64,000 nucleotides of DNA from Pectinatus sottacetonis (lineage in GTDB: Bacteria; Bacillota; Negativicutes; Selenomonadales; Selenomonadaceae), in contig NZ_WIQK01000001.1 of the NCBI RefSeq assembly GCF_015732155.1, positions 1,374,001 to 1,438,000 on the forward strand, given 5' to 3'. This document shows positions 24,933 through 48,821 of this stretch, piece by piece. Numbering within the stretch: position 1 is the stretch's first letter; the number at the start of each line of letters is the position of its first letter. Both the position numbers and the translations under genes were made by a program. A model generated the notes under the pieces. It was not told the origin of the DNA, searched no databases, and saw nothing but the letters and a program-made list of their open reading frames with translations.

Positions 24933-25964
24933 TCAATCATACATCTTTATGATATTGTAAGCTGTATCTCTCTGGGCGGGGATTTTGTCAGCTTTGCGTA
25001 TGAGGTCAGACATAGTATTTACTGACATTTGATGCGATGTTCCAGCAGCCTTGACAACATTTTCCTCCAGCATAATACTGCCAAGATCATCAGCACCGAA
25101 TGCCAGTGTCATTTGCCCTATGCTTTTGCCTTGCGTAACCCAAGAACCTTGAATATGGCTGATATTGTCAAAATAAAGACGTGACACGGCCAGTGTTTTT
25201 AAATAATCCCAGGAAGATGTCTTTTTACCGCCTAGTTTGGTGTTCCCTGGTTGAAAAGTCCACATAATAAAAGCACGGAACCCATTGGTTTCATCTTGCA
25301 GCTGGCGTATTTTTTGCATATGCTCAATGCGTTCCTCAATTGTTTCGCCTAGACCAAGTACCATTGTGGCTGTTGTTTTCATTCCGATCTTGTGGGCACA
25401 GCGCATAATATCAAGCCAGTCATTAGTCATTATTTTTTTAGGACTGACTATTTGTCGTACTCTGTCAACAAGAATTTCAGCTCCGCCGCCGGGAAGAGAG
25501 GAAAGTCCGGCATCTTGGAGCCGTTTTAATACTTCAGTGAAAGAATAGCCCGTGATATTACTGAAATGTAATATTTCCGTAGCGGTAAAGGAATGTATGA
25601 CAACGTCAAATTTCCTTTTTATGGCCCGGAGAACATCAATATAATATTGAAAATCTACATCAGGATGCAGTCCACCCTGCAGCATTATTTGTGTTCCACC
25701 AGCGTCAACTGTGGCTTGTACCTTTTTTAATATATCATCTATAGATAATAAATATGCACCTGGGTCGTTTTGCGGGCGGTAAAAAGCGCAAAAGTTACAT
25801 TCGTTTATGCAAATATTAGTATAATTAATATTCCTGTCAATTATAAAAGTTACGATATTATCAGGGTGCATTTGCCGGCGAATTTTATCAGCCTGCTGTC
25901 CTAAGGCCAGTATATCACCATTCTTTAATAGCGAGATGGCTTTCTTGTCAGATAATCTTTCCAT
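24933..25964 (-). CDS. mqnC: Cyclic dehypoxanthinyl futalosine synthase
   Basis: A radical-SAM enzyme of 343 residues, acting in the futalosine route to menaquinone by cyclising dehypoxanthinylfutalosine. The cluster motif is C52-x3-C56-x2-C59 in CINECNFCAFYRP. IMLQGGLHPD, HSFTATEI and LPGGGAEILVDRVR are hallmarks that separate MqnC from MqnE and CofH. AAGGAG lies 8 bases before the ATG. It ends a run of three homologous radical-SAM genes, with 16 bases between it and the one upstream. Confidence 0.93.
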   Translation of the reverse strand: MERLSDKKAISLLKNGDILALGQQADKIRRQMHPDNIVTFIIDRNINYTNICINECNFCAFYRPQNDPGAYLLSIDDILKKVQATVDAGGTQIMLQGGLHPDVDFQYYIDVLRAIKRKFDVVIHSFTATEILHFSNITGYSFTEVLKRLQDAGLSSLPGGGAEILVDRVRQIVSPKKIMTNDWLDIMRCAHKIGMKTTATMVLGLGETIEERIEHMQKIRQLQDETNGFRAFIMWTFQPGNTKLGGKKTSSWDYLKTLAVSRLYFDNISHIQGSWVTQGKSIGQMTLAFGADDLGSIMLEENVVKAAGTSHQMSVNTMSDLIRKADKIPAQRDTAYNIIKMYD

Positions 25965-25980
25965 AAAAAATACTCCTTAT

Positions 25981-27072
25981 TTAGTTTTTATTTACTGGAT
26001 TATATAAGGAATCACGTTCCACTGGAACATAGCCCGCCTGTTGAATTATGTGGGTGAGATCATCTTTTGTCATCATATTGCTTTCTTTAGCTCCGGCGGC
26101 ATGAATGATTTTTTCTTTGCCTACAGTACCATCTAAATCATCGGCACCAAAAACCAGGGATAATTGTGCTATTTCTTTAGTAAGCATTATCCAAAAAGCC
26201 TTAATGTGATCAATATTGTCAAGGATAAGGCGGGAAATAGCAATAAATTTAAGGTTTTCCCATGCGGTGACTGGCTTTATGATATAGTTTAAAGCTAATT
26301 TTGTATGCAGTGGATAAAAAGGAAAAGAGATAAAGGCATTAAATCCGTTAGTTTTGTCCTGAATATCGCGCAGCTTGAATAGATGGTGCAGGCGATGTTC
26401 TTTGGATTCGATATGTCCATATAATATAGAAGCATTAGTAGGTATTCCCATACTATGTGCTGTTTCTACAACATTTATCCATTCTGCGGAGGAAGCTTTT
26501 TCAGGGCAGATGATTTTTCTGATATTATCATCTAGGATTTCGGCACCCCCACCGGGAAGGGAAGACAGTCCGGCGGCTTTTAATTTTTGCAGGACTTGTC
26601 TTATAGAAAAGCTGCTGATTTTAGCGAAATAAGCAATTTCAACGGGTGTAAAAGCTTGTATATGGATTTGAGGAAGAATGTTTTTTATTGTTTGCAGTAC
26701 TTGAATATAATATTCAAAATTAATATCGGGATATAAGGAACTGACAACATGTATTTCTGTTAAATGGGGGTCATTATGCCAGGCAGCTTTGACCGATGCA
26801 GCAATATCCTTTAAAGATAATAGATAGCCTTTTTTACTGCCTGGTTTTACAGAAAAAGCACACAATGGGCATAATGCAGTACAGGTATTGCTTAGATTTA
26901 TGTGGTGATTAATATTGAAATATACGTCCTTTTTGCTGTGTCTTTCTTTTGCGGCCCTTGCCCACTGGGCTAGATCCAAGATAGAAGAATTGTTATAAAG
27001 CAGCATTGCCTCATCAAAGTTTAGGCGAGAGCCGTTTTCAGCTTTTTTTTCAGCAATAGTCAAATTGTTCAT
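25981..27072 (-). CDS. MqnE-like radical-SAM protein, diverged tandem copy
   Basis: A 363-residue homologue of aminofutalosine synthase. C64-x3-C68-x2-C71 (CTALCPLCAF) is intact. The shared segments AFTPVEIAYF, LPGGGAEILDDNIR and ILYGHIES are clear. The conserved GLHPD loop seen in both neighbours reads SSLYPD here, so a glycine and a histidine near the substrate site are changed. I chose ATG 27072 because GAGGT is 5 bases before it; the frame opens at 27084. It lies 18 bases after the other mqnE-like gene. Function may equal MqnE, or differ. Confidence 0.85.
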   Translation of the reverse strand: MNNLTIAEKKAENGSRLNFDEAMLLYNNSSILDLAQWARAAKERHSKKDVYFNINHHINLSNTCTALCPLCAFSVKPGSKKGYLLSLKDIAASVKAAWHNDPHLTEIHVVSSLYPDINFEYYIQVLQTIKNILPQIHIQAFTPVEIAYFAKISSFSIRQVLQKLKAAGLSSLPGGGAEILDDNIRKIICPEKASSAEWINVVETAHSMGIPTNASILYGHIESKEHRLHHLFKLRDIQDKTNGFNAFISFPFYPLHTKLALNYIIKPVTAWENLKFIAISRLILDNIDHIKAFWIMLTKEIAQLSLVFGADDLDGTVGKEKIIHAAGAKESNMMTKDDLTHIIQQAGYVPVERDSLYNPVNKN

Positions 27073-27090
27073 GGTGTACCTCACTTATCA

Positions 27091-28176
27091 TTAAAATGTA
27101 CGAATAATATTGAAGTTACAATCACATTCAGCAGGAATGCGTCCAGTTTCTTTTATTGTCCTTATTAATATATCTTTTGAAAGTGCTTTTTGTGAGCTGA
27201 CTCCGGCAGCATGCATGATTTTTTCATTACCGATAGTTCCATCAATATCATTTGCGCCGAACCCAAGTGCCAGCATAGCTATAGGAAGAGTCAACATTAC
27301 CCAGTATGCCTTTATGTTGTGGACATTGTCGAGCATAAGACGACTGATCGCCATCGTTTTTAAGTCATCCCAGACACTGGTTCGTGTTATGCTTTTTTCC
27401 AAGGCAGTATTATGAGGCTGGAAAGGAAAGCAGATAAAAGTCTGTAGGCCGCCAGTTTCATCCTGTAAATTGCGTAGTGTGATTAAATGATTTATGCGTT
27501 GCTCTATAGTTTCTATGTGACCATAAAGCATACTGGCATTTGTTTTTATTCCCAATTTATGAGCAGTACGGGCTACTTCCAGCCATTCAGCGGAAGTGGC
27601 TTTATTAGGGCAGAGTTTTTGGCGTATATTGTCATCAAGAATTTCCGCGCCTCCTCCGGGCATTGCTTCCAGTCCGGCAGCAATAAGCTCAGTTAAAACT
27701 TCCCGTATAGATTTACCGCTGATTTTTACAAAATGCATGATTTCTACACCGGTAAAGCCTTTTAAATGTAATGCAGGAAAAGTTTTTTTGATAGTTTTTA
27801 CTATATCCAGATAATATTCGTAAGGCCAGTCAGGATGCAGTCCGCTGACAATATGAAGGTTTTTCATAGCGGGATTTTGTGCAGCTTTATCTATCATAGC
27901 AATAACAGCCTGTTTAGTGAGGGCATAAGCATTTTTGCTGCCTTTTTTACAACCAAAAGCGCAAAATTTACATTGTCCGACACAAATATTAGTTAAGTTT
28001 ACATGGAGATTTATATTGTAGTATACATAATCGCCGCTTATTTTTTTTCGCATGGTATCAGCAAGATACCCAATTCTGGCTAGATCATTAGAAGCATAAA
28101 GTGCTAAGCCGTCTTCTTTTGTCAATCGTACGTTATTTAATAGTTTGTTTTCTATTTTATCTAAGGTATTACTCAA
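27091..28176 (-). CDS. mqnE: Aminofutalosine synthase (MqnE)
   Basis: A radical-SAM enzyme that joins 3-[(1-carboxyvinyl)oxy]benzoate to SAM-derived adenosine in the futalosine pathway. It has 361 residues. The motif C65-x3-C69-x2-C72 lies in CVGQCKFCAF, and HIVSGLHPDW and LPGGGAEIL-type (MPGGGAEILDD) segments follow. It is the more canonical of the two tandem copies. The start is a TTG at 28176 with AGAGGAG 9 bases upstream; the frame itself opens at 28236 without a ribosome site. It heads the mqnE-copy-mqnC-phosphorylase gene run. Confidence 0.9.
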   Translation of the reverse strand: MSNTLDKIENKLLNNVRLTKEDGLALYASNDLARIGYLADTMRKKISGDYVYYNINLHVNLTNICVGQCKFCAFGCKKGSKNAYALTKQAVIAMIDKAAQNPAMKNLHIVSGLHPDWPYEYYLDIVKTIKKTFPALHLKGFTGVEIMHFVKISGKSIREVLTELIAAGLEAMPGGGAEILDDNIRQKLCPNKATSAEWLEVARTAHKLGIKTNASMLYGHIETIEQRINHLITLRNLQDETGGLQTFICFPFQPHNTALEKSITRTSVWDDLKTMAISRLMLDNVHNIKAYWVMLTLPIAMLALGFGANDIDGTIGNEKIMHAAGVSSQKALSKDILIRTIKETGRIPAECDCNFNIIRTF

Positions 28177-28318
28177 AATATAGTACTCCTCTAAAAAAAT
28201 TACTAAAGGATCTAAGTATTGCCCTACTATATGCATATAATAATGAAATTAGGTGGCATGAATGTGAATATATCATGATTCTTTATGCTGAGCGGCAGAT
28301 AAATCCTTAAGTTTTAAA

Positions 28319-28478: not shown

Positions 28479-29507
28479 TTAATTTTCACATAATCTGATT
28501 ATTATATCTTCAAATAAAATGGGTGTGTCTTGTCCAGATTTTATTTTATAATCAGCATCGGCAAAGTTTACTATAGCAGTCCGCAGTGATTTTATATCGA
28601 AATGTTGAGCCTGGTTCATTAATTTTTCTGCAATAAACGGAACAAGGCCGATGTTTCTGGCAATAGTTTGTTTACTTAAGCCTTGCAATAGATAATATTT
28701 AATTTTCCATAATTGATTGATATGGCGTGTTAATATTACTAAAATCTTTATGAGATTGGCTCCAGCATTTTTCTCTTTTTCTAACAAAAATAAAGCTTCT
28801 TTTACATTTTTGTTTCCCACGGCTTCAGCTAGAGCAAAGACGGATATTTCCGGTAGGCCAGATAATATGTTTATCAAGTCATTTTTGGTTATAATTTGCT
28901 TGTCTGTATAAAGGGAAAGCTTGTCAAGTTCCTTGTCGAGAAATCCCAAAGAAATTTTTTGCATAAGTCCGATAGTAGATAATAAATAATGATATGCTTG
29001 GGTATCAGGGCGTTTATGCATTTCCCTGAATTTGTCGTTGAGCCATTCACTTATGTTATAGGCACGTATAGGATTAGTTTCTACAACACAGCCGTATTTG
29101 TCTATAGCTTTATATATTTTACGTCTCTTATCAGGTTTTTCATCTGTTTCTAATATCAAGGTGGTAAAGTCGGGAATATTTGCTAATAAACTAAGCAATT
29201 GTTTTTCTCGATTTTCAGCAGTTTTGCTTTTTTTGTCTTTGAGCAGATTATTATTATGAACCAGTATAATATTTTGCTTATTAAAAAAAGGCAGGGTAGA
29301 ACAAGCTTCAATAATACTATTTATAGAAACTGTATCGTCAAATTTACTTATGGAAGTTTGGCTATTTTCATTGCTGTTTTCAGGTAAAAGTTTATGAATT
29401 AACGCCCGGAAAAATTTATCTGTAAGAAATTTTTCTTCACCGGCAATTAAATACAATCTTTTTAAGTCATTTTTTTGTAAAGTTCTCAGAGCATCTTTAT
29501 ACTGCAA
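28479..29507 (-). CDS. holA: DNA polymerase III, delta subunit
   Basis: The clamp-loader delta subunit, which opens the beta clamp. The 342-residue protein has the HolA layout: LYLIAGEEKFLTDKFFRAL at the N-terminus (a degenerate AAA+ P-loop), LILETDEKPDKRRKIYKAI in the middle, and C-terminal ALFLLEKEKNAGANLIKILVILTRHINQLWKIK-type helices. The frame opens at GTG 29516, but the AAGGA is only one base from it. TTG 29507, 10 bases after that site, is the more plausible start. It follows comEC in the same orientation with a 15-base gap, the common comEA-comEC-holA order. Confidence 0.9.
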   Translation of the reverse strand: MQYKDALRTLQKNDLKRLYLIAGEEKFLTDKFFRALIHKLLPENSNENSQTSISKFDDTVSINSIIEACSTLPFFNKQNIILVHNNNLLKDKKSKTAENREKQLLSLLANIPDFTTLILETDEKPDKRRKIYKAIDKYGCVVETNPIRAYNISEWLNDKFREMHKRPDTQAYHYLLSTIGLMQKISLGFLDKELDKLSLYTDKQIITKNDLINILSGLPEISVFALAEAVGNKNVKEALFLLEKEKNAGANLIKILVILTRHINQLWKIKYYLLQGLSKQTIARNIGLVPFIAEKLMNQAQHFDIKSLRTAIVNFADADYKIKSGQDTPILFEDIIIRLCEN

Positions 29508-29522
29508 ATAGAACACGTCCTT

Positions 29523-43313: not shown

Positions 43314-45506
43314 TTATATATTATTTTCGTTAAGCGGAGTCAATACAATTTTTATATTGTCATTTTCATTTACAGGGGCAGTAAATTCTGCCGGAATATT
43401 ATTTTTTAAAATTTGGAAGGTCACACGACTGTCCGGCTTTGGTGGAGTAAAATCAGCAGCTAAAAGTACATCACTTATAATAGTCGGTGATTTTTTCCCC
43501 GGAGTACAGATAATATTGTCGCCTTCTTTTAATAAGTAATCAAGAGCTGCTGGCTTTTCGTTAACAGAAATTGCCGCCGAAGCTGAGGTATGTACAGTAC
43601 ATGGTTTGTCATTGAACAGTACAGTGATGACAGAAGAAATGTCCATGTGATTCAATATTGTTTTTAAAGAAATCCTGGCCGGTTCTACAAAATCTATTTC
43701 ATCATTTTCTTTTACTTTATCGGATAAATAAGCATTTGTACCATTTAATTTTATTTTGGGAGAGCTTTCTGCGGTTTTTTCTAAACCGTTTAATGTGTAA
43801 TGATATATGGTATTGTCTATAGCATAGCCGGCATATTCTAAAGCATTGGCAATACTGATTGAAGAAGTGAGGATGATTTCATCTTTATCGTGTAGTATAG
43901 TAGCAAGATTATGGGAAGGAATATCATTTATTAGGCAAAGCTGTTTGACATTTATTTTTTCACCATTTATATATAGGGAAATTGTTTCTATAGTATTTAC
44001 TATATCACCTAAATGTATACAGGGAGATGTTCCATCGTCACCATGTTCAATAGTTATATGGCATTTTTCTTTTATTTTATCATTAAGAGATGCGTCCTGT
44101 CCGTTGAGTTTTAATTTTGCCAATGTTCCCATAGAACCGCTTATAATTTTATTTTTACCGTTTATGCTCAGCATTATGCCCATACCGGGCCGACCGTTAT
44201 ATTTATGAAGGTTGATTCCTGAATTTAGAAAAGCATCAGCTATAGTAAGTTCTTTAAAATTGAACATATTATATTCTTTTTCGTTTATATAGACAGAAAT
44301 CAAATTTAAAGTCTGGTTTGATATCGTTTTTAAAATACCAAGTGGAGTGACAGCATCAGGGGCTTTTAAAGTATCAGGAATATCAGTAATGGTATCCACT
44401 TTATCTGGTTTTCTAACAGCTACCCGAGCGGCGGGTAGACTAAGTTCTTTGGCTACTTCTGTTGCCAGGTTAGGGGTCAAGGCCCCACCACCAACTAACA
44501 TGACAGCCTGAGGAGCTGTTGTATTTAAAGTTAATATTTGTTTGGCAATTGCCTGTGCCAGACCAGAAATATTTTTACTTACATTATTAATGATTTCTTC
44601 ACTTTTTAGGGAATATTCCATGCCCAGAATATCATTGAATTTTATTTCATTATCAGTTTTAGTTGATAATTTTCGTTTTACTTCTTCTGCAACGTTGAAA
44701 TCAAGCAGATATTGTTTTGATATAGCTTCAGTTATTTCATCGCCGGCCATTGGTACCATCCCATAAGCGACAACTGCACCGTCTTTAGTTATGGCAACAT
44801 CAGAAGTACCGGCTCCTATATCGACAAGCACGAGATTTAAGTGGCGCATTGTAGTTGGGATAAGGATGCTTATAGCTGCGATAGGTTCTAAGGTCAGGGC
44901 CTGCATTTCAAGTCCCGCAGCAGTGAGAGCAGACTGCATTGAATCAACAACCTGACGTGGTAGAAAAGTAGCAATAACATTGGCAGTTGCGTTTTGTCCG
45001 CGCTGACCAATAAGACTTTTTATTCTCGTGCCGTCAAGTGTATAAGATACAGTGCTATAGCCTACACAGTAATAGAATGAAGTGTCTTCGACTATATGGG
45101 AATCAGCCAGTTTTTTTTGGGCCGCTTGTACGGCCATAAAATCAAGATGATTCTGCTGCTCAGCTGAAATAGTTCCATTAATTTCTATTTCGGCTGAAGC
45201 GGTCATTGTATATAATGCTCTGCCAGCTGCAGCAACCGATACTTTTCTCAGTGGACAAGTTCTTTGTTCTAGATTTTTTTTTACTATAGATATTATTTTA
45301 GCAACCTGTGGGACATCGTGTATCTGCCCATCGAGCATAGAGCGAGTTTTATGTTCCTGGCGTTCAGTGTCAATTATTTTTAATGCAGTTTTGGTGTTTT
45401 TTGCAACAATACCTATTACGCTTCTTGTTCCGATATCTAAAGCGAAAACAATATTTTCAGTAGTTGTGTTGTTAGGAGAATGTTGCCCAGAAATTGGTGT
45501 TGTCAT
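43314..45506 (-). CDS. FtsA/PilM-type actin-like ATPase with tandem beta-grasp C-terminal tail
   Basis: A 730-residue protein. Residues ~20-395 match FtsA-type ATPases: phosphate-1 motif ALDIGTRSVIGIV (22-34), phosphate-2 VDIGAGTSDVAI (~228-239), adenosine motif VMLVGGGALTPNLA. After ~410 come five units of 55-70 residues, each ending in a similar strand-turn-strand: DKIKEKCHITI (~470), LHDKDEIIL (~539), DKVKENDEIDF (~595), LLKEGDNIICT (~660), VNENDNIKI (~713). This end is the form of ubiquitin-like beta-grasp domains (ThiS/SLBB). No FtsA C-terminal amphipathic helix is visible. It is encoded alone, not with ftsZ. A role in envelope or septum protein assembly is inference. Confidence 0.75.
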   Translation of the reverse strand: MTTPISGQHSPNNTTTENIVFALDIGTRSVIGIVAKNTKTALKIIDTERQEHKTRSMLDGQIHDVPQVAKIISIVKKNLEQRTCPLRKVSVAAAGRALYTMTASAEIEINGTISAEQQNHLDFMAVQAAQKKLADSHIVEDTSFYYCVGYSTVSYTLDGTRIKSLIGQRGQNATANVIATFLPRQVVDSMQSALTAAGLEMQALTLEPIAAISILIPTTMRHLNLVLVDIGAGTSDVAITKDGAVVAYGMVPMAGDEITEAISKQYLLDFNVAEEVKRKLSTKTDNEIKFNDILGMEYSLKSEEIINNVSKNISGLAQAIAKQILTLNTTAPQAVMLVGGGALTPNLATEVAKELSLPAARVAVRKPDKVDTITDIPDTLKAPDAVTPLGILKTISNQTLNLISVYINEKEYNMFNFKELTIADAFLNSGINLHKYNGRPGMGIMLSINGKNKIISGSMGTLAKLKLNGQDASLNDKIKEKCHITIEHGDDGTSPCIHLGDIVNTIETISLYINGEKINVKQLCLINDIPSHNLATILHDKDEIILTSSISIANALEYAGYAIDNTIYHYTLNGLEKTAESSPKIKLNGTNAYLSDKVKENDEIDFVEPARISLKTILNHMDISSVITVLFNDKPCTVHTSASAAISVNEKPAALDYLLKEGDNIICTPGKKSPTIISDVLLAADFTPPKPDSRVTFQILKNNIPAEFTAPVNENDNIKIVLTPLNENNI

Positions 45507-45905: not shown

Positions 45906-45944
45906 ATGGAATTAAACGGAGGCAGTATATATGGGCGAAAATAG
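45906..45944 (+). CDS. Possible 12-residue leader peptide overlapping the DAK2 gene start
   Basis: ATG 45906 is preceded by GGAGG at 45892-45896 and reads MELNGGSIYGRK before a TAG at 45942. The next gene's ATG (45931) lies inside it in another frame, and the same 11-base word GGAGGCAGTAT occurs in front of both starts (45892 and 45917). It may couple or tune translation. It could also be a chance duplication of the ribosome site. Confidence 0.35.
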   Translation: MELNGGSIYGRK

Positions 45945-47223
45945 GGAAATTATAACAGGCAGCGATTTTAAACGTATGATCGCCGGTGCATACAGTGCTT
46001 TTTTGCTTGAATATGAAAATATAAACAGCCTGAATGGTGATTCACTTTCGGATAAAGTTTGTCCAGGTACAAATATGCTTCGGACCATGGGAGCAGCAGC
46101 GATGGCTGTTAAAGATAATAGTAATAAAGGCATAGGGGCAATTGCTTGCGCGGTAAGTAACTGTGCTATTTTGGGCGCACGTGGTAATTCAGGTGTACTT
46201 TTGGCGCAGATCTTTCGGGGAATAGCCAAAGGACTGGCAGGAAAGTATGAGGTAAATTCATCGGTATTCGGAAAGGCGTTTCAATATGGTATTTTATATG
46301 CACACCGTACTTCACCGGAAAATGTAGAGCGACCTATTATTATCACAGCTAAAGCCGTAGCTAAGGGGGCATATAAGGCTGTACGCGAAAATAGGCCCAT
46401 TTCAGAGATTTTAGCGGAAGCGATAAAAGCAGGAAAAAGAGCTTTAATAAATACAAAAGATGATGATACAGGGGTTATTGATGCAGGAGCTAAGGCTTTA
46501 ATGGTATTGCTGCAGGGATGTCAATCTGGGTTGGATGGAAATTTTGTTTCTCCAGCAGTAGTGTTTTCGTCAGGAACTAAGAAATCGCATACAGTTCCTG
46601 AACCAATTCATGATATAGTGCATCCTTATTGTATTCAGATTACAATATATAATTGTAAAGTGCATGTTAGTGATGCCAAAGAAATATTGGCAAAATATGG
46701 AAATATGGTTGTAGTTAAGAAAAAAATGCATGATGTATTGATGCATTTGCATACACAATGTCCAGGAGCAATTGTTGAACAGATAGTGGGTTGGGGAAAT
46801 TCTTATGAAATTCACATTGATAATATGGCAGAATTGCACAAACCACTGATTTTAGGACAGCCAGCCAATAAATTGGTTGTGTTGGCAGTAGCGGAAAATG
46901 AGGCAAAAGCAGCATGTTTGCAGGAATATGGAGCAACTACTATTCTGGCAGAAAGCGGTGAAGGCTTGACTGTAGGAAATTTTGTGAATACAGTGCATAG
47001 TGATATAGCAGAAAAATATATTTTTCTGCCTGATAATGTTAGTATGAACCTTATGCTATATCAAACAAAGCGATTGCTGGGAAAACGTGTTGAAATTATT
47101 TATACTAGTGACTTTACAGAGCAGATAAGGGCATTGCATGAATATGATGCTGAAGATTCGCTGGAAAACAATGTTAGAAAAATGCAAAATGCTGTAGAAA
47201 AGCAACGTAGTAATGACAAATAA
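45931..47223 (+). CDS. DAK2-domain (FakA/YloV-like) protein with altered metal site
   Basis: A 430-residue homologue of fatty-acid-kinase subunit FakA: an N-terminal DAK2 (DhaL-type) domain (~10-200; GARGNSGVLLAQIFRG and TGVIDAGAKALMVLLQG) and a C-terminal half of FakA type ending KRLLGKRVEIIYTSDF. In active FakA the Mg-ATP is held by aspartates in a PDGDTGTNM loop. Here the aligned loop reads SDKVCPGTNM, so both aspartates are replaced (K and C). It may be a non-catalytic or divergent member. Starts at ATG 45931 behind GGAGG. No fakB lipid-binding gene is in the window. Confidence 0.8.
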   Translation: MGENREIITGSDFKRMIAGAYSAFLLEYENINSLNGDSLSDKVCPGTNMLRTMGAAAMAVKDNSNKGIGAIACAVSNCAILGARGNSGVLLAQIFRGIAKGLAGKYEVNSSVFGKAFQYGILYAHRTSPENVERPIIITAKAVAKGAYKAVRENRPISEILAEAIKAGKRALINTKDDDTGVIDAGAKALMVLLQGCQSGLDGNFVSPAVVFSSGTKKSHTVPEPIHDIVHPYCIQITIYNCKVHVSDAKEILAKYGNMVVVKKKMHDVLMHLHTQCPGAIVEQIVGWGNSYEIHIDNMAELHKPLILGQPANKLVVLAVAENEAKAACLQEYGATTILAESGEGLTVGNFVNTVHSDIAEKYIFLPDNVSMNLMLYQTKRLLGKRVEIIYTSDFTEQIRALHEYDAEDSLENNVRKMQNAVEKQRSNDK

Positions 47224-47259: not shown

Positions 47260-47301
47260 AAAAAACATTTCAGCCTGATATAAAGATTGAAATGTTTTTT
47301 T
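47260..47301 (+). terminator. Intrinsic terminator after the DAK2 gene
   Basis: AAAAAACATTTCA (47260-47272) pairs with TGAAATGTTTTTT (47288-47300) across a 15-base loop, and a run of seven T follows. It lies 37 bases after the stop codon. Confidence 0.8.
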
Positions 47302-47305
47302 GTAC

Positions 47306-47543
47306 TTATCCACAGGCTTATATTGTGGTAGAGAGAAAAAAAATCCTATATTTTGTATTTAATAAAAGTCCTTTGTGATAAAAACCTTGTAAATATAAGT
47401 CTGGATGGCATCATTAGCAGAGATAAAGTTTTTTGCTTGTGAATTTATATACTGTGAATAAATAGAATATACCTGTGGACAAAAAAAGCTTTAATTATAA
47501 AAGATATAGAAGTTATCCACAATTTTATTATATTTGTGGATAA
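47306..47543. promoter_or_regulatory. Cluster of DnaA boxes
   Basis: Three perfect TTATCCACA boxes (47306-47314 plus, 47513-47521 plus, 47535-47543 minus) and two one-base variants (47453-47461 reads TTATTCACA on the minus strand, 47474-47482 reads TTGTCCACA on the minus strand) lie within 238 bases of non-coding, AT-rich DNA. The last two perfect boxes face each other 13 bases apart. Random expectation for one 9-mer is far below this density. No dnaA, dnaN or gidA is nearby and gene orientations do not switch here, so a regulatory or titration site is as likely as an origin. Confidence 0.7.
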
Positions 47544-47664
47544 AATTGTGCGTAACTATATATTTATGTTTGTTGAATTTTTATGCAAAATATGTATTTG
47601 TATTGTATTGATTGAAATAGAATTGCAGCATTATCCTGACAGGAGTAAGTATAAACTTTGCTGC

Positions 47665-47693
47665 TTGTGGGAAAAAAATGTATTTGTTATAAT
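47665..47693 (+). promoter_or_regulatory. Promoter of the 51-residue protein gene
   Basis: TTGTGG (47665-47670), a 17-base spacer and TATAAT (47688-47693). The transcript would start near 47700, about 50 bases ahead of the small gene and 120 bases after the DnaA-box cluster. Confidence 0.65.
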
Positions 47694-47749
47694 TAGTATA
47701 GTTTTCAGAAACAACAATACTATAAGCATAGGAGGTGGTATAAACTTAT

Positions 47750-47905
47750 ATGGCAGACGAAATAAGACAAAAAATTCAAAAAAGAATAGAAGAACTGAAA
47801 AAAAGAATGAACTATGATGCAAATGATCTTGAATATGAAACACATTTACATATAATGCGTGATTTACAGCAAATACTTGATAACAGTGGCAAAAAAAATA
47901 CATGA
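47750..47905 (+). CDS. Small charged protein of 51 residues, unknown function
   Basis: An ORF starting MADEIRQKIQKRIEELKKR and ending in GKKNT, rich in Lys, Glu and Arg in its first half, predicted to be helical throughout. It is supported by a strong ribosome site GGAGGTGG (47731-47738), by its own promoter, and by separation of 55 bases from mqnA in the same orientation. I do not recognise the family. Heptad-like spacing (I-x3-I-x2-L pattern) suggests a short coiled coil. A longer ORF in another frame over the same DNA (47536-47817) has no ribosome site. Confidence 0.7.
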   Translation: MADEIRQKIQKRIEELKKRMNYDANDLEYETHLHIMRDLQQILDNSGKKNT

Positions 47906-47960: not shown

Positions 47961-48821
47961 ATGCAGCCACGTGTGGGACATATAAATTTTCTTAATTGCC
48001 TGCCATTGACGTATAGTTTATTGCAATGTGGTTATCATAAGGGCATGTCACTGGCATTGGCAGTGCCAGCTGTTTTAAATAAATCTATGTTGGAAGAAAA
48101 ATTGGACATAAGCCCAATGTCATCAATTGCTTATGCCAGAATGTCAGATAAGCTTTTACTGCTGCCAAACATAGGGATTGTTTCTGATGGAAGCGTACAA
48201 AGTATCATTTTAGTATCACGTAAACCGATTGAAAACATGGAAGGAGAAAAAATTATTCTCACAGCACAGTCGGCAACATCGCACTGTCTGTTAAAAATAA
48301 TTATGCAAAAAGGATATAATTGTAGTCCTCTATACAGAACAGCAAAAGTTGATCCAGTACAGTTATTTGCTGAAAATGATGAAAGTTCAGCGATATTGTT
48401 AATTGGCGATGATGCGCTGTATGTAAATCATAACAGAATGAAAAATTTGTATTATTATGATTTAGGAAGTGAATGGAAAAAATTAACGGGCCTGCCAATG
48501 GTTTATGCTGTTTGGGCAGTTAATAGCAGTTTTTTGCAGTCACATAAAAAACAGGCTGAAAAAATATATATAAAATTAAGAGGTGGATTTGATAATGGAA
48601 TAAAAAATAAGTTACAGGTAGTAAACTGGGCAGAAACAAAAACGCCTTTTTCCCGACAGCAGCTTTTTAATTATTTTGATGTTATAATGTATAATGTAGG
48701 TCAGAAAGAATTACGAGCTTTGGCAGTTTTTTATAAGTATGCTGTTGAATGTGGATTATTATCAGTAATACCTTCAATGGAAATGATGAGTATAACCAAT
48801 GTTCGGGAAATATCCAGGTAA
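47961..48821 (+). CDS. mqnA: Chorismate dehydratase (MqnA)
   Basis: The first enzyme of futalosine-type menaquinone synthesis, dehydrating chorismate to 3-[(1-carboxyvinyl)oxy]benzoate. The 286-residue protein has a periplasmic-binding-protein-like fold. VGHINFLNCLPLTYSL at the N-terminus and EEKLDISPMSSIAYARMSDK are characteristic, and VYAVWAVN (~194-201) is the usual hinge. GGGAG precedes the ATG. It stands 20 kb from the mqnE/mqnC genes, so the pathway is split over two loci; mqnD and mqnB are not in the window. Confidence 0.92.
   Translation: MQPRVGHINFLNCLPLTYSLLQCGYHKGMSLALAVPAVLNKSMLEEKLDISPMSSIAYARMSDKLLLLPNIGIVSDGSVQSIILVSRKPIENMEGEKIILTAQSATSHCLLKIIMQKGYNCSPLYRTAKVDPVQLFAENDESSAILLIGDDALYVNHNRMKNLYYYDLGSEWKKLTGLPMVYAVWAVNSSFLQSHKKQAEKIYIKLRGGFDNGIKNKLQVVNWAETKTPFSRQQLFNYFDVIMYNVGQKELRALAVFYKYAVECGLLSVIPSMEMMSITNVREISR

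Follow-up and report, generated by a model that had tools for sequence, protein, structure and literature searches.

Clusters of DnaA boxes outside oriC have been described in both Bacillus subtilis and Escherichia coli. In B. subtilis, such clusters (Okumura et al. 2012, as presented in the accessible parts of reviews and of PMC4447404) are found mostly near the origin, one of them between gcp and ydiF, and the accessible text of two further articles (PMC5295017, PMC13220808) reports that the loss of six DnaA-box clusters results in early initiation. In the same species, sda is activated by DnaA, according to the accessible text of one article (PMC4447404). For E. coli, the available part of one study describes boxes that are conserved at high density around the origin, as would suit titration (PMC12371093). 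Two other types of E. coli site are datA, whose essential boxes share one direction, and DARS, whose members have a common spacing, with box I pointing against boxes II and III, both as stated in the available portion of a single article (PMC5742627); according to the accessible part of a review (PMC10380432), DARS require their boxes to be arranged head to head.

The two triads of E. coli K-12 that were taken as DARS1 and DARS2 in this study both show boxes at offsets 0 (+), 14 (-) and 26 (-), which agrees with that description. We presume DARS1 to be the bioD-uvrB site and DARS2 the rppH-mutH site. Judged by their distances, DARS1 and DARS2 are not origin-proximal.

In this study we examined a cluster of DnaA boxes in a Pectinatus species whose genome comprises 2.69 Mb in two contigs. 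The window, that is, the whole stretch of DNA analysed, spans 64,000 nucleotides (C1:1,374,001-1,438,000), and positions given without a contig or locus name refer to it.

Results

A DnaA-box cluster in non-coding DNA

Three perfect DnaA boxes (TTATCCACA), namely box 1 (47306-47314, +), box 4 (47513-47521, +) and box 5 (47535-47543, -), together with two one-mismatch boxes, box 2 (TTATTCACA, 47453-47461, -) and box 3 (TTGTCCACA, 47474-47482, -), occupy 238 bp of AT-rich non-coding DNA, exactly at the positions claimed in the preliminary description. A sixth box (TTACGCACA, 47547-47555, -), 12 bp past box 5, is decayed and carries two mismatches; the corresponding position is a perfect box in one of four Pectinatus relatives and has one mismatch in the other three. 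Boxes 4, 5 and 6 constitute a conserved triad (47513-47555, +; boxes I, II and III), in which two boxes converging 22 bp apart are followed, another 12 bp outward, by a third (hereafter the 22/12 triad). When windows were simulated with a first-order Markov model of the window and scored over 238-bp spans, none of 1,000 equalled the observed density, no span exceeding three boxes with at most one mismatch (five observed) or two perfect boxes (three observed). Genome-wide, 66 perfect boxes were counted.

The cluster lies between the end of an ORF for a DAK2/FakA/YloV-like protein (45931-47223, +) and the start of a 51-residue ORF, p51 (47750-47905, +), the remaining ORFs called in this gap being overlapping frames. 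An ORF for an MqnA-type protein (Pfam VitK2_biosynth; 47961-48821, +) is found downstream of p51. By eye, a terminator-like inverted repeat with a T-run follows the FakA/YloV-like gene (47262-47301, +), and a Sigma-A-like promoter (TTGTGG, 17 bp, TATAAT; 47665-47693, +) precedes p51. The motif TTGTGGT beside box 1 (47323-47329), invariant in the alignment of all five Pectinatus genomes, is a possible candidate for a weak convergent DnaA half-site and does not amount to a full DnaA box. The cluster had also been described as having no replication genes nearby, which holds for its immediate neighbourhood and not for the wider window, since holA (DNA polymerase III delta) is encoded 18 kb away (28479-29516).

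Elsewhere in the window, three tandem radical-SAM genes (24933-28236) comprise one MqnC and two MqnE-like genes, one of the latter scoring just under the NCBIfam MqnE cut-off, and the opposite strand encodes an FtsA-like protein of 730 residues (43314-45506) that is considerably extended at its C terminus. A search with the MqnA protein of the genome_contigs collection (84,980 species genomes) gave 23 pattern matches, none of which was confirmed.

Conservation of the cluster within Pectinatus

The genome containing the window (G000) was compared with those of four relatives, Pectinatus brassicae (G001), P. haikarae (G002), P. frisingensis (G003) and P. cerevisiiphilus (G004). The cluster occupies the same location in all five genomes with near-fixed spacing, the offsets from box 1 being 0, 145-147, 167-168, 206-207, 228-229 and 240-241; P. 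cerevisiiphilus has one additional box at offset 126. The distance from box 1 to the triad is thus near-constant (206-207 bp), and boxes 4 and 5 are offset by 22 bp in every genome. Box 1 has the same sequence in all five. Pairwise identity reaches 92% in box columns versus 52% in the other columns of the cluster. In all five genomes p51 lies 3' of the cluster, three of them carrying about 1 kb of extra DNA between p51 and mqnA. The promoter columns (47664-47698) show 79% pairwise identity, and the distance from box 1 to the -10 element is 378-386 bp in four genomes and 340 bp in P. brassicae.

The inverted repeat between boxes 1 and 2 was also considered as a bender site, and this was rejected given that, by eye, the repeat resembles a terminator in the four relatives (A-tract, hairpin, T-tract). 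In the window, a terminator-like repeat precedes box 1 and the repeat between boxes 1 and 2 is decayed, again by eye. A second imperfect inverted repeat is located near 47375-47410.

Position relative to the replication origin

The dnaA frame is located at C1:1,259,759-1,261,288, in a region whose flanking ORFs we take to be rnpA and dnaN. Box clusters occur on both flanks of dnaA, where GC skew shifts from -0.203 (1.24-1.26 Mb) to +0.099 and then +0.201. The position of dnaA and the GC-skew switch place the cluster 161 kb away from oriC, on the right arm, a distance equivalent to 6.1% of the chromosome contig. The suggestion that the cluster is the chromosomal origin is therefore not supported, as it lies neither next to dnaA nor at the skew switch.

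The 398-kb origin region and a 400-kb control, made up of 20 stretches over the rest of the genome, were screened for spans with at least four boxes per 250 bp. Five were identified, all between 1.25 and 1.42 Mb (one at -8 kb, two flanking dnaA, one at +54 kb and the window cluster), and none in the control. Furthermore, three boxes grouped at +192 kb (1,452,514) share the core of the triad, and oriC itself contains a one-plus-two triad with offsets 11/12 beside dnaA (L033:12703-12734).

The cluster 8 kb left of dnaA (L033:4918-5135; C1:1,251,917-1,252,134) has five perfect boxes and contains a 44-bp palindromic element, TTATCCACA-N26-TGTGGATAA; elements of this kind, of 44-45 bp, occur in at least the four Pectinatus relatives and G011, G013 and G020. 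Since convergent ORFs end on either side of it, this cluster is no ordinary promoter site. Another stretch (L034:6151-6701; C1:1,314,150-1,314,700), upstream of a rubrerythrin-like gene, holds 10 boxes within 183 bp, with additional ones outside this span.

Comparison with described DnaA-binding sites

The Pectinatus locus shares with the B. subtilis clusters a dense set of DnaA boxes outside oriC and an origin-proximal position. In both organisms there are several clusters outside oriC, including one between gene ends, and most of the B. subtilis positions listed in the accessible text are origin-near. The two differ in YabA, which was detected in the B. subtilis control but in none of the 21 genomes searched here. 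With datA, as far as the available source text describes it, the locus shares the presence of a box cluster outside oriC and near it, but box directions are mixed in Pectinatus, whereas the essential datA boxes are unidirectional. The resemblance to the DARS1/DARS2 core consists of one box facing two tandem boxes and a tandem offset of 12. The facing offset is nevertheless 14 in E. coli and 22 in the Pectinatus triad (0/14/26 versus 0/22/34), and the Pectinatus site has perfect boxes I and II and is near the origin. The triad of the organism's own oriC agrees in topology and in tandem spacing; its distance from box I to box II is less by roughly one helical turn, and it is situated at dnaA. 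Among the roles initially put forward, a titrating or datA/DARS-type site is the best supported as a class, through its origin-proximal position, near-fixed geometry and DARS-like topology, with the reservation that DARS spacing differs.

Distribution of the triad in Negativicutes and other bacteria

A 22-bp convergent pair (at most one mismatch) was found in 37 of 60 related genomes, against three for a reversed control, and was absent from 23, including G010, G013 and G022. The 22-bp offset, first seen in the window, was checked both by this control and, across 200 Negativicutes genomes, by a search that favoured no particular offset, in which the tandem spacing was fixed and the facing spacer allowed to vary from 0 to 30 bp (I-II offsets 9-39). 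The latter recovered 66 exact triads in 46 genomes, which, being related, are not independent counts; control matches were zero, and 154 genomes had no exact triad at any facing spacing. Facing offsets were 11 (22 triads), 12 (8), 13 (6), 14 (1), 21 (1), 22 (19), 23 (1), 33 (5), 34 (1) and 35 (2), with none at 15-20 or 24-32, a pattern that would correspond to spacings near one, two and three helical turns. By hand count, the 19 triads at offset 22 belong to 17 genomes and 12 families. The copy in the window was missed by the strict pattern (no match in G000) because box 6 is decayed.

To describe the pairs themselves, 42 distinct 22-bp pairs were assembled from 47 chosen loci, mostly gathered by the 22-bp pattern. 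In two of the genomes read (L089, L099) the 22-bp pair adjoins dnaA itself. Removal of two dnaA-adjacent pairs from the set left 40 non-oriC pairs. A third box stood exactly 12 bp outward (+34) in 32 of these and within 1 bp of that place in 34, and was missing there in six; the background elsewhere averaged 0.3 per position and strand, with a maximum of four outside the triad. The pairs were mostly intergenic, eight of the 40 overlapping an ORF of at least 120 residues, versus 1,881 of 2,350 random positions sampled from all 47 loci. The neighbouring genes vary (Nramp/mgtC, ppk, a tadA-like deaminase, ptsI, a decarboxylase/degS pair, thiM and others), and some loci are found again in other genera, such as mgtC in Pectinatus (G000, G001, G004), G011 and G033. 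Another recurring locus encodes a protein of about 105-110 residues (L111:3806-4138) with no Pfam or NCBIfam match, which adjoins a 22-bp pair in seven genomes.

Seventeen modules, one-mismatch modules included, could be placed in nine genomes with dnaA on the same contig. Of these, 15 are separated from dnaA by no more than 11.5% of the chromosome, a limit picked after viewing the data, as do eight of the 10 distinct loci obtained by collapsing them by hand; the two distant modules are at 469,676 in G000 and 3,416,134 in G040. Two close-set cases, a second pair at a distance of 92 bp in G033 and an overlapping pair in G052, each entered the count once, modules on contigs other than that of dnaA (e.g. 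in G001, G003, G027 and G053) were left unplaced, and the placements are approximate in genome size for G002 and G004 and in the rounded dnaA position for G004 and G052.

A strict-triad scan of genome_contigs returned 76 stretches, 18 labelled Negativicutes (hand count); by label, many others belong to Clostridia/Clostridium and a few to Bacteroidota, Trueperaceae or Bacilli. Seven of the 76 contain dnaA, and 10 contain dnaA or a homologue in the position of dnaN. The triad is thus not exclusive to Negativicutes and can belong to oriC elsewhere. In the literature on Negativicutes DnaA boxes, Firmicutes DARS, the Pectinatus origin and cluster spacing, the best-listed titles and abstract beginnings, which mostly leave out subscription papers, mention no such triad.

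The p51 family and candidate regulators of DnaA

In p51, 28 of 51 columns are invariant among the five Pectinatus genomes, and the protein is predicted to form a helical hairpin (mean pLDDT 79, pTM 0.55). No Pfam match over cut-off, no NCBIfam match and no Foldseek match at E<=0.001 were obtained, and the protein was on these grounds not assigned to any known small regulator. Sda and Spo0E are small helical hairpins too, and a relation of p51 to either is neither shown nor excluded by the predicted model. Of 120 genomes, 55 contain a member of the family, and 50 of these are not Pectinatus. The 700 bp upstream of the gene, read for 25 homologues from these 50, contained no perfect DnaA box in any case and a one-mismatch box in one. 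Boxes do not, therefore, accompany the gene across its family, and p51 is an unlikely explanation of the conservation of the cluster; regulation of p51 as the conserved role is accordingly disfavoured. The earlier proposal of a DnaA-regulated promoter for the 51-residue gene is weakened by this result and by the occurrence of the 22-bp pair beside other genes.

YabA was detected in none of 21 genomes, the control being positive in B. subtilis and L. lactis. No Hda scored over cut-off in the same 21 genomes, with one of 14 control genomes positive, and the best match to the Hda model was a frame of DnaA size (473-563 residues) in 20 of the 21; divergent versions of either protein could escape such detection. 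A second DnaA-like match at C1:1,729,019, considered as an Hda-like regulator, proved to be the IS21 helper ATPase IstB.

Discussion

The existence of p51 homologues without boxes, along with 22-bp pairs beside unrelated genes, indicates that the site itself appears to have been kept and not one promoter. Considering also that YabA and Hda went undetected and that precedents exist in B. subtilis and E. coli, we lean towards interpreting the locus as an origin-proximal, extra-oriC DnaA-binding site that acts as a sink or assembly site. Several DnaA molecules would assemble on regularly placed boxes. The nucleus of this assembly would be the core triad, in which box I (+) is followed by boxes II (-) and III (-) at 22 and 34 bp. 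Located about 6% of the chromosome from oriC, the locus would be duplicated soon after initiation, and the doubled sites would absorb free DnaA and so contribute to postponing the following initiation, an effect that has been proposed for the clusters of B. subtilis. We infer that the locus binds and titrates DnaA and affects initiation timing, and the cluster probably helps to set initiation frequency. Against a sink stand the small number of boxes, six compared with 66 perfect boxes genome-wide, the two of 17 placed modules that are far from the origin, the many genomes of the class without the 22-bp pair or an exact triad, and the occurrence of the pair or triad beside dnaA in some genomes and outside the class; the kept 22- and 12-bp spacings, which titration alone does not explain, suggest a specific assembly.

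The strict spacing, arguing for a defined assembly, and the DARS-core topology (box I opposite to II and III, the latter offset by 12 in both cases) would also suit a switch of nucleotide state, in which head-to-head DnaA molecules on boxes I and II, aided by box III, alter the bound nucleotide, either by ADP release as at DARS or by ATP hydrolysis as at datA. We consider such a switch unlikely: the I-II offset is 22 and not 14, a value seen in a single one of the 66 triads; the perfect boxes I and II of this site contrast with the E. coli cores, where five of six boxes depart from TTATCCACA at one or two positions; the placed modules are mostly origin-proximal, unlike DARS1 and DARS2; and Hda, which would produce ADP-DnaA, was not detected. 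In addition, the similar 11/12 arrangement at oriC of this genome implies that this topology is not confined to sites of nucleotide exchange. The triad may work like DARS, but with a facing offset of 22 instead of 14 it is not classed as one. A DnaA-controlled promoter of p51, perhaps also serving mqnA and comparable to sda in B. subtilis, would account for the cluster being upstream of p51 in all five genomes even where about 1 kb precedes mqnA, for the conserved promoter sequence and for the regular distance from box 1 to the -10 element in four of them. This appears rather unlikely to us in view of the lack of perfect boxes upstream of the 25 homologues, the shorter distance in P. brassicae, the 109 bp separating the last box from the -35 element in the window, and the 22-bp pairs that elsewhere adjoin ppk, a tadA-like deaminase, ptsI, degS, mgtC and thiM; an effect on the p51 promoter specific to Pectinatus may nonetheless exist.

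A chromosome-organising site, at which DnaA, or a second factor at TTGTGGT, tethers origin-proximal loci, would agree with the several separate clusters in one arm and give a role to the invariant and otherwise unexplained TTGTGGT motif, and we hold it to be highly improbable. Scarcely credible is a cryptic or back-up replication origin, which the dense boxes and AT-rich DNA might recall, as the oriC-like clusters at dnaA coincide with the GC-skew switch and neither an initiator nor a helicase-loader gene was noted among the adjacent ORFs.

Conclusions

Our preferred interpretation, an origin-proximal sink or assembly site, bears on how DnaA is limited in Negativicutes, where YabA and Hda were undetected in 21 genomes. 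As a tentative and doubtful extension, the 22/12 triad might represent a widespread DARS-like head-to-head assembly of Negativicutes, one helical turn longer than its oriC version, that changes the nucleotide state or oligomeric form of DnaA and might constitute a main control of initiation where Hda and YabA are undetected. A compact, repeated and mostly origin-proximal three-box element with fixed spacing is a ready test object, and the spacing series 11, 22 and 33 makes it possible to test directly what part the geometry of the boxes plays when DnaA assembles.
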